This document shows positions 38,820 through 64,000 of a stretch of DNA of 64,000 nucleotides, in pieces. The stretch is from Gottfriedia acidiceleris (GTDB taxonomy: Bacteria; Bacillota; Bacilli; Bacillales; Bacillaceae_G): contig NZ_NESS01000006.1 in the NCBI RefSeq assembly GCF_002128425.1, forward strand, positions 248,001 to 312,000, written 5' to 3'. Each line of letters begins with the position of its first letter. The stretch's first letter is position 1. The translations under genes and the position numbers were made by a program. Under the pieces are notes generated by a model that saw only the letters and a program-made list of their open reading frames with translations, did no database searches and was not told the DNA's origin.

Positions 38820-39890
38820 ATGACCAATTATAAGTTAAGTGTTGTAGTCATTAACTATAACAAAGAGAAATTTATTGAGGAAAGTTTACAATCTGTCATG
38901 AATCAGTCATTAAAAGATATTGAACTGATCGTTGTCGATGATGGTTCGACTGATAAAAGTAGTGTTTTAGCAGAAGAATTCACAAAAAAGTATCAAAATG
39001 CAAAGTTTATTAAACAGGAAAATAAGGGGCCAAGTGCCGCAAGAAATACAGGTTTATTACATGCAAGTGGGGAATATATTGCTTTTTTAGATGGAGATGA
39101 CATTGCTTACCCAGATTCATATGGCCAATTATATTCTTTAGCAAAAAAATATAACGCTGATACGGCAATAGGTAATATTTTATGCTTTAATAGCGAAAAA
39201 ACTTGGCGTTTAGATTATATGAAAGAAGTTTTTAAAGAAAATTTACCAGAAAATAGACAGATTCTAAAGAATCCTGAGCTACACCTTACACCATCTGCTA
39301 GTAATAAATTATTTAAAAAAGAACTTCTCGAGCGCGAAGGAATTTTATTTCACGAAGAACTACGTGTTGGTGAAGATTTATTATTCACAGAGAAATCTTT
39401 GCTACAATCAAACTGTACAGTTGTTTGCAACATCGATGTCATCGGTTATCGAATTGAAGACCCTGAAAATAGTCTAATTAAATCTGGAACAATTCAATTT
39501 TTTAATCAATTAGTCGTACTTCAAAAAGAGTTGCGATCTTATTTTGAAGAAAATGGTTTTACGGAAGAATTAATTCATATTGAAAGAAGACAGCTTAAAT
39601 TCTTTATTAACTCAATTAATATAAAGGCAAATAAACTACCAGATCACGAGAAGTTGAATCTTGCTTCTGTTGGTAATGAATTTATGAGAACAATTCGAAA
39701 TGAATCGATTAAAGATGATCTTAGTGCGGTACCAAAGTTTATAGCAGATACATTACGATTAAAAGATCAGCGAGCTTTAAAAATCTATTTATCCTTAAAA
39801 TCAAACCCTAAAATGACGAATAGTAAGTTAAGAAAAGTAGTTTATCTCCTTTCACTATTCTCTTTAAGATACAAGTTTGTTAAATCTTAG
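38820..39890 (+). CDS. Glycosyltransferase family 2, related to the GT2 parts of the fusion proteins
   Basis: 356 residues. GT-A domain with LSVVVINYNKEKFIEESL, VDDGSTDKS, ARNTGLLHASGEYIAFLDGDDI and a helical C-terminal half (from about residue 200). The layout, including CFNSEKTWRLDYMKE and a later VGEDLLFTEKSLLQ, mirrors residues 1-350 of the 909-residue protein encoded at 53,426-56,155, but no polyol-phosphate transferase domain is attached. RBS AGAGAGG precedes ATG 38820. It may be a free-standing version of that sugar-adding module. No terminator is obvious after it. Confidence 0.82.
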   Translation: MTNYKLSVVVINYNKEKFIEESLQSVMNQSLKDIELIVVDDGSTDKSSVLAEEFTKKYQNAKFIKQENKGPSAARNTGLLHASGEYIAFLDGDDIAYPDSYGQLYSLAKKYNADTAIGNILCFNSEKTWRLDYMKEVFKENLPENRQILKNPELHLTPSASNKLFKKELLEREGILFHEELRVGEDLLFTEKSLLQSNCTVVCNIDVIGYRIEDPENSLIKSGTIQFFNQLVVLQKELRSYFEENGFTEELIHIERRQLKFFINSINIKANKLPDHEKLNLASVGNEFMRTIRNESIKDDLSAVPKFIADTLRLKDQRALKIYLSLKSNPKMTNSKLRKVVYLLSLFSLRYKFVKS

Positions 39891-57586: not shown

Positions 57587-58972
57587 ATGAGTAATCAGTT
57601 AACAAATAAATTAGAAGTAGGACAATCTTTTCCTATAACAATTAAACGTATTGGGATTAATGGTGAGGGTGTCGGTTACTTCAAAAGACAAGTAGTCTTT
57701 ATTAAAGGAGCATTACCTGGTGAGGAAGTAGTCGCAGAGGTAACGAATGTTCGCAACGGTTTTGCTGAAGGGAAAATTCAACGTATTCGAAAAGCATCGC
57801 CAGATCGTGTAGAGCCGACTTGTAAAATCTACGAAAAATGTGGTGGCTGCCAAATTCAGCATGCAACCTATGAAGGACAACTTCGATATAAACGCGACAT
57901 TGTCATCCAAGCAATGGAAAAGTATGCGAAAGATTTACTAGAAAAAACACCAATTAAAGAAACGATTGGTATGGAAAATCCTTGGAATTATCGCAACAAA
58001 AGTCAGCTTCAAGCTGGGCTAGAAAAAAATAAAATAATTGCTGGATTATATACACAAAACTCTCACAATGTTGTCGATATTGGCCATTGCCCAATTCAAC
58101 ATGAGGATTTAAATAAAATTACAGGTAAAGTGAAGAAAATTTTAACTCGTTTAAATATCCCTGTTTATAATGAACGAAAAAATAAAGGGGTAATCCGAAC
58201 AATCGTAGCACGAGTTGGTTTACGTACAGGTCAAATCCAATTAGTACTTGTAACTGGAACGAAAGATTTTCCTCAGAAAAATGAATTAATCAGTGAAATT
58301 AAAAAGCGAATTCCTGAAGTTACAAGCTTAATGCAAAACATTAATAATCAAATGACTTCAGTGATCTTTGGTCGTGAAACTGTTTATTTAGCAGGTGAAG
58401 AAGTAATTGAAGAAAAGCTTGGAGACTTATCATTCGAACTTTCGGCAAGAGCGTTTTTCCAATTAAATCCTGAACAAACAGTTAAGCTATATGATGAAGT
58501 CAAAAAAGCAGCTGCACTTACTGGAACAGAAAAAGTAGTAGATGCTTATTGTGGAGTAGGGACTATCGGACTATGGCTAGCAAAAGACGCAAAAGAAGTT
58601 CGAGGCATGGACGTAACGAAAGAAGCAATCATAGATGCGAAAACAAATGCTCTAAGCCATGGATTTACAAATACGCACTACGAAGCAGGTAAAGCTGAAC
58701 AAGTATTACCAAAATGGTTAAATGAAGGCTGGAAACCAGATGTAATCATAACTGATCCACCGAGAACTGGTTGTGATGAGGAGTTTCTAAATACGGTATT
58801 AAAAATTAAACCGAAGAAATTAGTTTATGTTTCTTGTAATCCTTCTACTTTAGCTAGGGATTTAAATGTATTGAGTAAGAGTTATGATGTGAAGTATTTA
58901 CAGCCTGTTGATATGTTTCCGCATACTGCTCACGTGGAGTGTATCTCGCAACTCATTTTAAAAACTAAGTAA
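57587..58972 (+). CDS. rlmCD: 23S rRNA (uracil-C5)-methyltransferase
   Basis: 461 residues. In B. subtilis this single enzyme (YfjO) makes both m5U747 and m5U1939. A TRAM domain starts the protein (about 8-65: [31 protein letters not shown] in part). The Fe-S ligands are in [12 protein letters not shown] (about residues 79-90) with a further Cys near 162. SAM binding is [25 protein letters not shown] and [15 protein letters not shown] hold the catalytic Cys. It ends the conserved yfj block; the accessory island begins about 100 bases after its stop. Confidence 0.94.
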
Positions 58973-59079: not shown

Positions 59080-60497
59080 TCAATTTTCTTTACAAAAATA
59101 TGGAGTATATTTGCTGTAAGCTCTTTTAGTGCACTCGTTTAATTTGTCTTTAAGGTTGTGTAGATGATCTTCGTGTGCAATTTCTTCTATCTGAGAGGTA
59201 ATATTTAGTATTTCATTTTTATGTTTATTAACTTTTAGTTTAAACATTTCTCTTAGTTCTTCAAGCTCTTCTTTTGAAATTTCCTTCTCTAGAAATAAAT
59301 CATAGTACTGAATCTTTTTTGTAAATTTTCGAATAGTAGTTTCAAGAGTAGAAATTTCTTTTGCTAATAGCTTCCTTTTGTTATCAATTTGCTTCCGAAG
59401 TACATCATCTAGTTGATTTTTATTAAGCTCGTCAAATAGATTAGATAAATCATTTAATATCGTTTCACATAAAGTTTTCTCTTTTATTGCTTTACTATTT
59501 TTACAAAATATATTTCCATACTTTATGCTTCCACCACATTCCTTAATTACATTCAACGTAGCAGTAGAAGTCCTTGTTCATGTTGATAACATCTTTTGTA
59601 CAGAAAGAAACAAGAATAGAATTGTTGAGAAATTTTTTTTAGTTTAAGTGTCTTTTGGCACACTCCACATATAACGGGTACAGAAGTAGGCTGAATAGCA
59701 TCAAGCTTTTGTAATGTCTTAAATAATTATCAAAATAAGGAGTTATTCTTTTTGGGATTTGATTATATTTATTTAAGGCTATATATGGATCAACATGATT
59801 AAGCTTAACTTTTTTATTTATTAGGTCATGAGCCGCGTAAAAAGGATCTAGAATAATAGAAAGAAATTTTTTAGGGTTAAGTTTAAATTGTTTATATGCT
59901 GTTTCACAAGTTCCAAAAATTCTTCCTCGCTATTTACGAGTTGAAGTTTTTCAAATAAAAGTAATATCGTTTCTTTTTTATCCGGATTGTAAATATGACA
60001 TTTTTTATCCTCACTTCTAACAAATCCATATTTTTGTGCAGGATAAGCTCTTCTGACTTCACTTGATTTTCTTGCTATATTTTTCCCATCCTCTTCCGCA
60101 AAAACAAAAAGTATGCCCCCTAAAAGCGCACGATTAGTAGATTGAATATGTTCAGAAGATGTATAAATTATTTTAACTTTATGCATAAGTCAAAAAACAA
60201 CATAGAATCTAGGAATTTACGAAATAATCTTGTTCGATCAAAAGCATAAACAGTATCCACTTTATCGGCTTGTATTAATCTAATTACTTCTTTCATTTTC
60301 TCTCTTTCGTGATAGCGTAATTTATTAGCTGAAACACCTTTTTCCTCAATAATTAGAATTAAATGATCAGGAATTAATGAACGGTAAATTTCATCAGCTA
60401 AAATTTGCGATTTTATATCCTGTTGATTTGTACTAACACGTCGCATGAATACATGGTATTTTCCACTAAAGTAAATATTTTCTTGAATATCAATCAT
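59080..60497 (-). pseudogene. Decayed serine recombinase
   Basis: Fragments of one gene in three or more frames. 60497-60168: resolvase N-terminus with MRRVSTNQQ (catalytic Ser), VDTVYAFDRTRLFRKF. Near 60170 a frameshift continues into VKIIYTSS, then RALLGGILFVFAEEDGKNIARKSS and AYPAQKYGFV (to about 59890). A further shift leads to FLSIILDPFYAAHDL. A Zn-ribbon CGVC is readable near 59665, and 59556-59080 encodes a long coiled coil (LLAKEISTLETTIRKFTKKI). The order - resolvase, recombinase domain, Zn-ribbon, coiled coil - is that of a large serine recombinase. It cannot be functional as read. Confidence 0.8.
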
Positions 60498-61519: not shown

Positions 61520-61711
61520 ATGGAGAACAAACTAGAAATGGAAAACTTAGTTCAAGAATTATGTTTTGAGGAACTAGAAAATTACGTAGGAAATGGAGCA
61601 CTTACTAAAGCACAATGTACAGCTATCTGGCTATCTTGTGCAGGTGGAGGAGCTTACGGTTGTGGCGGTGGAGCAACTTCTTGTGAAATTTATAGAAGTT
61701 ACTGCTATTAA
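61520..61711 (+). CDS. sunA-like: Sublancin-type glycocin precursor
   Basis: 63 residues: a 26-residue leader (to about Gly26 in NYVGNG) and a 37-residue core starting ALTKAQC. The core has Cys at 7, 14, 22, 29 and 36, exactly the sublancin-168 positions, with the shared blocks KAQC, GCGGGA and a C-terminal YRxxC. In sublancin Cys7-Cys36 and Cys14-Cys29 form disulfides and Cys22 carries S-linked glucose; the same is expected here. The core differs from sublancin at many sites (TAIWLS for AALWLQ; AGGGAY for ASGGTI). The leader ends NG rather than GS and has an extra Cys15. RBS GGGGGAA is 9 bases before ATG. A C39 ABC transporter gene follows. Confidence 0.92.
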
Positions 61712-61762
61712 TAAAAAATTTAACTATTAATTATATAAATTCAATTAAAAAGTGTACATATG

Positions 61763-61803
61763 AAAAGCTTCTTATATTTAATATGTTTAAGAGCTAAGCT
61801 TTT
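61763..61803 (+). repeat. Hairpin between the glycocin and transporter genes
   Basis: AAAAGCTT (61763-61770) and AAGCTTTT (61796-61803) with further CTTA/TAAG pairing inside. It may protect the glycocin mRNA 3' end. Confidence 0.45.
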
Positions 61804-61823
61804 AAATGAAGTTATATAATTCC

Positions 61824-61864
61824 AAAAGAAATTTCATTATATATTGATGAAATTTCTTTTTTGA
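61824..61864 (+). terminator. Intrinsic terminator between glycocin and transporter genes
   Basis: AAAAGAAATTTCAT (61824-61837) and ATGAAATTTCTTTT (61847-61860), perfect 14 bp, then T-run. Partial read-through would give much more precursor than transporter. Confidence 0.85.
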
Positions 61865-61903
61865 TTTTAAATAAAAAATTTATAAATTAAAGGAAAATGT
61901 AAT

Positions 61904-64000
61904 ATGTATAAGAATAACTTCATACATACAAAACAACTTGATAAACATGACTGTGGACTTGCGTGTATTTCTTCAATTCTAAAGTTTCATGGTCTTTATT
62001 ATGGAATAGATTATTTAAGAGATCTTACTTTCGATAAGAAGGGATATAGTTTAAAAGACTTAATTTCCGTTTTTAATAAATTTGATAATTTTACATGCAA
62101 GGCACTGAAAATTAATAAAGAGAGACTAGTAGATTTTTTAGAACAATTTAAAACGCCCTTTATTGCTTTAACAAAAAATGATAATGAAGGACATTATATT
62201 GTTGTATACCAAAAAGAGAAAGATTATCTAATTATAAGTGATCCAGAAGAGGGAAAGATTTCTAAGATGCCGATTAAAGAGTTTAACAATATCTTTTCGG
62301 GAATAATATTAAGTGTTGAGATTACTAAAGAAGTTTCTAATACAACAAATAAAATACATAATAAAAAAACATTTTTTCAGAGAATAATAAAAGAAAATGT
62401 ATTTTCTTTTATTATAGTATTTCTTTTATCCTTACTACTTGTGGGATTAACAGTTGGATTGTCCATGTTTATGAAATTTGTCGTAGATCTTATTATTCCA
62501 ATGCACTTAGATTCATATCTACCTTATTTGGGGGCAATATTCGTAGCTAGTAGTCTACTTCGTGTATCGTTAGATTATATAAGAAATCTATTTATATTAA
62601 AAATGTCTAACAAAATAGATAAGAATATATCTGAAAAATATTTTAAAAAAATAACTAGAATGCCAATTAACTTTTTCTTAAATAGGGATGATGGAGAGAT
62701 TATTTCAAGGTTTAATGATAGTGCGTATATTAGAAATATTCTTAGCGTAAATATTGTATCTGCAGTATTAGATATCACTATAATATTAGCAATTAGCGTT
62801 ATCCTTTTTAAGGTAAATAGCATTTTATTCTTTACATCCTTATTACCTTTACTTCTATTACTGTGTCTAACAGTTCTTTTTTATGAAGTCCTTGAAAATA
62901 AAAATAAAGATTTAATGGTAAGTAGAGCTAAAACTACATCTTTTTTAGTTCAATTTATCAAAAACATGCCAACTATATACTCGCTCAATAAGAAAAGATA
63001 TTTTTCAGATTCATTTGAGAAAATATTTAATGTACAGCTAGATTCAACAATGAAAGAATTAAAAGCGGTAAATAATAATAATACGTTAAAATATTTGATT
63101 CAAAGCTCAGCTTCTATAATTATATTATGGATTGGATCCCAACAAGTCTTAAATGATGCACTTACACTAGGAAGCTTATTATTTATTAATTCGCTCATTC
63201 TATTTTTAATGAATTCTTTAGATAGATTAATAAGTGTACAATCAGAACTACAAAAAGCATTCGTTGCGACAGATAGATTTTTAGATATTTTAAATTATCC
63301 GATAAAAAAAGAAGAACAAATAAAAAAAATGCATCCTATTTCTGAAATACAATTTCGCAATTTTTCCTTTAGCTTTGATAGTTTTAATAAAATTATCGAA
63401 GATGTAAATTTCTCAATTCTCAAAAATGAAAAAATTGTATTAGTTGGTGAAAGTGGGGTAGGAAAAAGTACCCTTGCAAAAACTTTGGTCAAATTTTATG
63501 AGGTCGAAAAATCAAAGATATGTATAAATAATATAGATATTAATGATATAAATGCTGAAGAACTAAGAAAAGAAATTATTTATTTAGACGAGAATCCATT
63601 CCTTTTTAAAAGTAGTATTATAGAAAACTTATGTATGGGAGAAAACTTCGACAAAAAAGATATCATAAAAGCCTGTGAAATTGCAGGAATTTATAATTTT
63701 ATAAATACTTTACCAAAAGGATTTGAATTTTACTTAAGTGAGCATGCTGCAAATTTATCTACAGGACAAAGACAAAGATTATCACTAGCAAGAGCTATTC
63801 TTCATAATCCGAGTGTTTTAATCTTAGATGAATCACTTAGTAATGTAGATTCAGAAACCTTTAAAAAAATATACAATAATTTATCTGAATTAGAATGTTC
63901 TATTCTATTTATTACTCATAATCCTGAAATTATTAATCATTATGATAAAAAGTTTATTTTTAAAGATAAAGTCATAAAAGAAAACTTTGATAATTTAAAT
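61904..64000 (+). CDS. sunT-like: C39-peptidase ABC transporter for the glycocin (3' end outside window)
   Basis: 699 residues visible, close to the 705 of B. subtilis SunT, so only the last few codons should be missing. It cleaves the leader and exports the peptide. C39 peptidase: Cys17 in LDKHDCGLACISSILKFHG, His97 in EGHYIVVY and Asp113 in ISDP. Membrane part about 155-430 with six segments. ATPase: Walker A GESGVGKST (about 515-523), signature LSTGQRQRLSLARA, Walker B VLILDESLSNVD. ATG 61904 is 9 bases from AAAGGA. No stop occurs before the window end. In the sublancin cluster bdbA, sunS (S-glycosyltransferase) and bdbB follow SunT. Confidence 0.93.
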   Translation, partial: MYKNNFIHTKQLDKHDCGLACISSILKFHGLYYGIDYLRDLTFDKKGYSLKDLISVFNKFDNFTCKALKINKERLVDFLEQFKTPFIALTKNDNEGHYIVVYQKEKDYLIISDPEEGKISKMPIKEFNNIFSGIILSVEITKEVSNTTNKIHNKKTFFQRIIKENVFSFIIVFLLSLLLVGLTVGLSMFMKFVVDLIIPMHLDSYLPYLGAIFVASSLLRVSLDYIRNLFILKMSNKIDKNISEKYFKKITRMPINFFLNRDDGEIISRFNDSAYIRNILSVNIVSAVLDITIILAISVILFKVNSILFFTSLLPLLLLLCLTVLFYEVLENKNKDLMVSRAKTTSFLVQFIKNMPTIYSLNKKRYFSDSFEKIFNVQLDSTMKELKAVNNNNTLKYLIQSSASIIILWIGSQQVLNDALTLGSLLFINSLILFLMNSLDRLISVQSELQKAFVATDRFLDILNYPIKKEEQIKKMHPISEIQFRNFSFSFDSFNKIIEDVNFSILKNEKIVLVGESGVGKSTLAKTLVKFYEVEKSKICINNIDINDINAEELRKEIIYLDENPFLFKSSIIENLCMGENFDKKDIIKACEIAGIYNFINTLPKGFEFYLSEHAANLSTGQRQRLSLARAILHNPSVLILDESLSNVDSETFKKIYNNLSELECSILFITHNPEIINHYDKKFIFKDKVIKENFDNLN

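Follow-up and report, generated by a model that had tools for sequence, protein, structure and literature searches.

The 64,000-nucleotide stretch of Gottfriedia acidiceleris DNA analyzed here (assembly GCF_002128425.1, contig NZ_NESS01000006.1, positions 248,001 to 312,000 of the forward strand; hereafter the window) runs at its 3' end into what is, with a probability of about 0.93, a chromosomal and probably intact sublancin-type glycocin cluster working as in characterized relatives. Six plus-strand genes encode, in this order, a sublancin-family precursor (SunA-like), a C39 peptidase/ATP-binding cassette (ABC) exporter (SunT-like), a thioredoxin-family protein (BdbA-like), a SunS-like S-glycosyltransferase, a DsbB-family protein (BdbB-like) and a small SunI-like PH-domain protein. 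Gene content, gene order, family membership and motifs are established directly, and the cluster adds a new member to a small glycocin family that was already known. Genes past base 64,000 are given in extended coordinates, i.e. their position in the adjoining stretch L006 plus 61000.

The precursor gene (sunA-like; 61520–61711, plus strand) lies where the original prediction had placed it, encodes 63 amino acids and has GGGGGA 5' of its ATG. Its product matches the Pfam family Sublancin (PF19151) with 72.3 bits (3.7e-20; cut-off 26.9), aligns with SunA, matches the sublancin chain of PDB entry 2mij (6e-11) and has the five core cysteines that, together with membership of PF19151, mark the precursor of a sublancin-type glycocin. 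Recounting confirmed that, numbered from Ala27, the cysteines occupy positions 7, 14, 22, 29 and 36, which is sublancin's spacing; sublancin has the same residue at 22 of the 37 positions. The motifs KAQC, GCGGGA and YRxxC, which the precursor had been said to retain, were all found, as was AGGGAY in place of sublancin's ASGGTI. The Gly-Cys-Gly-Gly loop is present as YGCGGG at precursor residues 46–51, and alignment with sublancin and the motif rule of PMC6405829 point to the codon at 61661–61663 (plus strand), inside the core, as the probable glycosylation site. Between the precursor gene and the transporter gene a hairpin is followed by a T-rich tract (61824–61860, plus strand; -15.4 kcal/mol, z -5.65), which may serve as a terminator or attenuator; a stem-loop is annotated at the same place in SPBc2. 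A consensus terminator scan, which demands at least three G-C pairs, missed this hairpin, and a promoter scan was uninformative (45 found versus a mean of 56.3 in shuffles).

The next gene had been taken to encode a C39-peptidase ABC exporter, and it does. It starts at 61904 and extends 24 bases beyond the window, to 64024 (window part 61904–64000, plus strand). Its 706-residue product aligns with SunT and exceeds the cut-offs of PF03412, PF00664 and PF00005; the C39 domain carries Gln11, Cys17, GHY and SDP, and the Walker A, Walker B and ABC signature motifs are present too. The central forecast, that a gene for an S-glycosyltransferase would lie just beyond base 64,000, was borne out by a search of the rest of the contig: a sunS-like gene with a TTG start (64452–65726 extended, plus strand; 424 amino acids) begins 452 bp beyond that base, and its product, which has the motif DAD, matches the SunS equivalog model TIGR04195 (490.6 bits; cut-off 350). 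The best PDB match of this protein is 7msk (436.9 bits), and SunS entries 7msn (349.6 bits) and 7msp are also among the best; 7msk is presumably ThuS of thurandacin, which its entry title does not say. The thioredoxin-like genes of BdbA and BdbB type for which a check had been advised are both present and flank the sunS-like gene. The bdbA-like gene (64021–64428 extended, plus strand; 135 amino acids) and the bdbB-like gene (65739–66167 extended, plus strand; 142 amino acids) align with their SPbeta counterparts, and their products belong to the Thioredoxin and DsbB families with CPGC and CDLC, respectively. We take the motifs listed for exporter, glycosyltransferase and oxidoreductases to be the catalytic motifs of these families. 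The whole genome contains a single SunS match (E up to 1e-30) and a single Sublancin match (E up to 1). In a 10-row tree the SunS-like protein groups with SunS and a homolog from genome G491 (50% identical), apart from the GccA-type enzyme; on the GccA side, where branches are long, the inner topology is uncertain.

All chemical steps, as well as cleavage site, activity and a role in immunity, are inferred from characterized relatives. SunS-type enzymes transfer glucose onto the cysteine of a Gly-Cys-Gly-Gly/Ser motif, PalS also modifies other sublancin-type precursors, and activity of pallidocin and Hyp1 requires both glycosylation and disulfides (PMC6405829). In SPbeta, leader removal and export of the peptide are the task of SunT, BdbB forms the disulfides, BdbA is dispensable and SunI confers immunity (PMC6391423); sublancin is imported into sensitive cells via a glucose phosphotransferase system (PMC8270828, a review). 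By analogy, the precursor would be made in the cytoplasm, and the central cysteine of its interhelical Gly-Cys-Gly-Gly loop would receive one hexose from the SunS-like enzyme, glucose donated by UDP-glucose being the most likely. Leader removal, most likely by a cut between Asn25 and Gly26, and export of the peptide would fall to the SunT-like protein. BdbB-like and perhaps BdbA-like oxidoreductases would form two nested disulfides (Cys8-Cys37 and Cys15-Cys30), and the product would kill related Gram-positive bacteria, from which the small PH-domain protein encoded directly downstream may guard the producer.

Five observations weigh against this interpretation or parts of it. The precursor reaches 34.9 bits on NCBIfam model TIGR04196 and thus stays below its cut-off of 40 (SPbeta SunA 67.7, G491 precursor 40.9); its leader has a cysteine at residue 15 that is absent from the SunA leader; and Gly-Asn lies outside the described C39 cleavage motifs (GG, GA, GS and lately GK). 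The SunI-like protein is 34–37% identical to SunI and 66–74% identical to orphans on Priestia plasmids, and genome G491, which has a sublancin-type cluster, contains no match to the family bPH_8 of the SunI-like protein. A decayed or silent cluster, i.e. genes without a product, is nevertheless very improbable. Recombinase remnants directly upstream and the lack of SunS in 12 congeners would fit such decay, and on account of the latter the cluster may have been recently gained or often lost. Against decay, all six genes are open, with lengths about as in SPBc2 (the SunI-like one being shorter) and with their motifs kept, and the SunS match runs without an internal stop.

The original prediction had the core begin at Ala27, with sublancin's length and cysteine spacing. 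The spacing stands, the start at Ala27 is not supported, and with it falls the equal length; a start at Gly26 fits better. In characterized C39 exporters the cut follows GG, GA or GS, and hydrophobic residues mostly occupy -7/-12; a second group combines a -9/-14 register with GK (PMC12457901); the -9/-14 register is reported for OrgT. In a computation of registers, a cut after Gly24-Asn25, before Gly26, puts leucines at -7 and -12, and only the GN/G cut yields this pair. A further indication comes from SunA, whose Gly-Ser/Gly site aligns to Gly-Asn/Gly of the precursor, and from the G491 sister precursor (L025), whose leader ends in Gly-Asn-Gly-Phe and has no GA there. For these three reasons a 38-residue core starting at Gly26 is most likely: a predicted leader of 25 amino acids (61520–61594, plus strand) ending in Gly24-Asn25 and a predicted core (Gly26–Tyr63; 61595–61708, plus strand) with cysteines at 8, 15, 23, 30 and 37, their spacing unchanged. 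As Gly-Asn is not in the described motif set, this core is an inference.

Two other cuts of the same precursor were weighed. Cleavage after the canonical Gly26-Ala27 would leave a 36-residue core from Leu28; GA is a described motif, and the cut puts Leu19 and Leu14 at -9 and -14, the OrgT register in PMC12457901, canonical GA being obtainable with this register only. The absence of GA from the sister precursor and the alignment of SunA's Gly-Ser/Gly with Gly-Asn/Gly speak against such a cut, which we regard as unlikely. A cut before Ala27 would give 37 residues, with sublancin's exact length and cysteine numbering. Asn25-Gly26 is not among the described motifs, and the residues at -7/-12 (Glu/Cys) and -9/-14 (Glu/Glu) match neither described C39 register, so that this start is quite improbable.

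Immunity is the weakest assignment in the cluster, and the PH-domain protein is a candidate for it. The candidate gene (66223–66501 extended, plus strand) encodes 92 amino acids with a bPH_8 domain (123.3 bits, cut-off 27), the domain expected of a SunI-like protein. The N-terminal hydrophobic segment of SPbeta SunI is absent, in our alignment, from this protein and from nine other non-SunI rows. In a 12-row tree it groups loosely with the Priestia copies; five of eight inner branches are open. Relatives were found in 12 plasmid records, of which eight are from Priestia (66–74% identity), and in 18 phage records, of which four also hold a sublancin precursor and 14 hold none at that threshold (E up to 0.01). 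Orphan SunI-like PH-domain genes on Priestia megaterium plasmids (L057 6017–6274, L058 4024–4281, L059 6003–6260) encode proteins 69–74% identical to that of the cluster; no glycocin-type gene was recognized by product name near the SunI-like gene in the three annotated Priestia regions examined, a fourth plasmid region with a relative, from Niallia, being unannotated. SunI-like/UPF0457 genes of SPbeta-like phages are located at L064 1794–1934, L063 4013–4264 and L066 4010–4261. In phages SPR and Goe14 such a gene adjoins an annotated yokF nuclease gene; the annotated SPR open reading frame is short, and a second match in the SPR record presumably corresponds to the SunI gene.

Within the genus, bPH_8 (E up to 0.001) matches twice in the genome of the cluster (G000) and in none of the 12 congeners. 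The second copy lies away from the cluster on contig C23 (L050 8054–8320) and is 56.6% identical to the cluster's copy across 83 aligned residues; near it, two open reading frames resemble by eye a split transposase. The family was also compared in G791, G053, G125 and G491, four further genomes that possess a gene of the SunS family. G791 has two matches, one of them adjoining its sublancin-like gene; G053 has one, and G125 has one below the cut-off, neither being close to the respective glycosyltransferase.

The PH-domain gene could thus also be a UPF0457-type passenger, with self-protection coming from elsewhere, a serious alternative that we nonetheless hold to be somewhat improbable. It draws on the kinship of the protein, which is closer to orphans of Priestia plasmids and SPbeta-like phages than to SunI, on the missing N-terminal hydrophobic segment and on the second copy on C23, and it was given more weight because G491 possesses a cluster and no genomic bPH_8 match. 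A mere passenger is harder to reconcile with a gene of SunI's Pfam family directly downstream of the cluster and with the absence of the family from all 12 congeners, none of which has the cluster. If the PH-domain protein is the immunity factor, as we prefer to assume, its relatives may, as a hypothesis, carry orphan immunity. It is tempting to speculate further that the exporter cuts after Gly-Asn to yield a 38-residue glycocin, that the producer is shielded by a PH-domain protein lacking any membrane segment, and that close relatives of the latter, carried alone by Priestia plasmids or SPbeta-like phages, are mobile orphans conferring resistance to glycocins of the sublancin type; taken as a whole, this combined proposal is doubtful.

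The cluster apparently resides on the chromosome and not in a phage, in keeping with the original view of a sublancin relative distinct from SPbeta. Megablast against 50,697 phage records found no match for window positions 39501–64000 or for L006 1–20000; the program needs about 85% identity and would miss diverged phage DNA. The neighbors are mostly of host type (fumarase, DNA-glycosylase-type, RNA-methyltransferase-type, amidohydrolase). When ten flanking proteins were compared with PHROGs, seven had no match, two had weaker ones (radical SAM or GT2-type) and one had a strong one: the product of the RNA-methyltransferase-like gene at 57587 matches, at 623 bits, a phrog annotated as DNA methyltransferase. 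By Pfam it is a tRNA (uracil-5)-methyltransferase/TRAM protein, and its gene is common to two congeners. A prophage origin, considered and set aside, is thus unsupported by the megablast result and by flanks that, apart from this one protein, are mostly host-type.

For a comparison of the site, congener stretches beside the downstream amylase-like gene were fetched for 7 of the 12 congeners, of which six were used (L046, 764 bases long, was left out). With blastn at E up to 1e-8, all six align to the downstream sequence, and no match to the cluster was obtained from any of them; four do not show the upstream gene. In the remaining two, L041 and L047, the upstream gene aligns, ending near window 58938–58963, and alignment resumes past the cluster. 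Because these two align on either side but not across the cluster, we regard its site as variable. Recombinase remnants (window 59080–60497, minus strand) lie between the RNA-methyltransferase-like gene and the cluster; scanned as six separate pieces, they gave a resolvase N-terminal domain over the cut-off (36.3 bits) in the piece at 60168–60497 and no match over the cut-off in the other five. That a recombinase brought the cluster in is a guess.

Related genes are sparsely distributed. Of 13 genomes in the genus, one, the cluster's own, has a SunS match (E up to 1e-30), the 12 congeners having none; the count is 1 of 19 for the family, which includes those 13 (E up to 1e-40), and 3 of 397 for a sample of the order (E up to 1e-50), only the cluster's genome exceeding the model cut-off. 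A Sublancin-family precursor was detected in 2 of 398 genomes of a class sample, the cluster's genome included (E up to 1e-4). With the SunS-like protein as query (E up to 1e-40), one match each was obtained in the family of G491 (23 genomes, 50% identical) and in that of G060 (80 genomes, 41% identical). Among the 50,697 phage records, tblastn of the precursor (E up to 0.01) retrieved four, all SPbeta-type phages; the glycosyltransferase matched the same four and, partially, an Enterococcus phage. The precursor matched none of 72,556 plasmid records (E up to 0.01). Glycosyltransferase matches occurred in 96 plasmid records and are not close, since identity is about 28–35% among the 40 matches listed. 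In viral contigs the precursor query gave 11 pattern matches, none confirmed, and a two-row SunS alignment gave six loci, all 42% identical; the letters of the sublancin core occur in an open reading frame at five of them, and L018 has none in the stretch examined.

A genome scan by two short peptide patterns yielded at least five loci, and among those listed only L013 covered most of the query (residues 15–382). L014–L017 were set aside as generic GT2 proteins because their match is confined to residues 55–143. L013 (2501–5875; Neobacillus terrae) and L026 (6082–9465; G053) are single open reading frames of 1124 and 1127 amino acids, respectively, in which a C39-ABC exporter (33–34% identical to the cluster's SunT-like protein) is joined to a C-terminal SunS-like glycosyltransferase (39–40%); small cysteine-containing open reading frames lie directly upstream of both. 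The word 'fused' does not occur in PMC12457901. On a plasmid of the Gram-negative Photobacterium damselae (L055 2463–7035), a SunS-like GT2 gene (31% identity over 82% of the query) adjoins HlyD, C39 and ABC genes and might belong to a glycocin-like cluster.

Four peptide strings of the core had no match in the open-access literature searched. Genome mining uncovered nine other putative glycocin clusters in Bacillales (PMC5100339), and the present cluster or a near relative may be listed in that paper or in Singh and Rao's survey. Few glycocins have been characterized experimentally: ten in Bacillota as of 2022 (PMC9576775), with two more added in 2025 (PMC12457901). The cluster leaves the picture of glycocin biosynthesis unchanged. 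Its complete gene set, combined with divergence in the loop and in the immunity candidate and with an uncommon leader end, makes it a test case for three questions: the extent of loop variation that SunS can accommodate, the range of leader ends open to C39 exporters, and whether immunity can come from SunI-like PH proteins that have no membrane segment.

Among known systems, the glycocin F family, represented by the ASM1 plasmid (L053), resembles the cluster in having ABC exporter, GT2 and thioredoxin-family genes, and differs by two thioredoxin-family genes, no annotated DsbB and a LytTR regulator gene; a glycocin F type was rejected since the glycosyltransferase branches separately from the GccA-type GT2. 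The system of 7msk was compared through its SunS-family enzyme. By description, the pal operon has five genes, the cores of Hyp1 and Hyp2 comprise 41 and 51 residues, respectively, and the Hyp1 leader ends in Gly-Lys-Gly (PMC6405829). The uncharacterized sublancin-type cluster of G491 (L025 5321–9886) shares the order A-T-bdbA-S-bdbB, the Gly-Asn-Gly leader end and, with 50%, the highest SunS-like identity computed. Its precursor, 52% identical, differs by a four-residue insertion directly after the presumed glycosylated cysteine, and its genome by the missing bPH_8 match.

The sublancin 168 cluster of SPbeta, whose order in SPBc2 is sunI-sunA-sunT-bdbA-sunS-bdbB (gene names partly from PMC6391423), differs in several respects. 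Its proteins are just 37–59% identical to those described here (SunA 33/56, SunT 332/695, BdbA 56/132, SunS 162/382, BdbB 55/108, SunI 28/76), the loop reads ASGGTI instead of AGGGAY, and the SunA leader ends in Gly-Ser-Gly instead of Gly-Asn-Gly-Ala. In SPbeta sunI is located upstream and encodes the N-terminal hydrophobic segment, whereas the SunI-like gene of the cluster is located downstream and lacks it, and the surroundings contain no phage DNA near-identical by megablast. Common to both clusters are the gene set, the order A-T-bdbA-S-bdbB, the precursor family with its cysteine spacing and Gly-Cys-Gly-Gly loop, and a hairpin 3' of the precursor gene.

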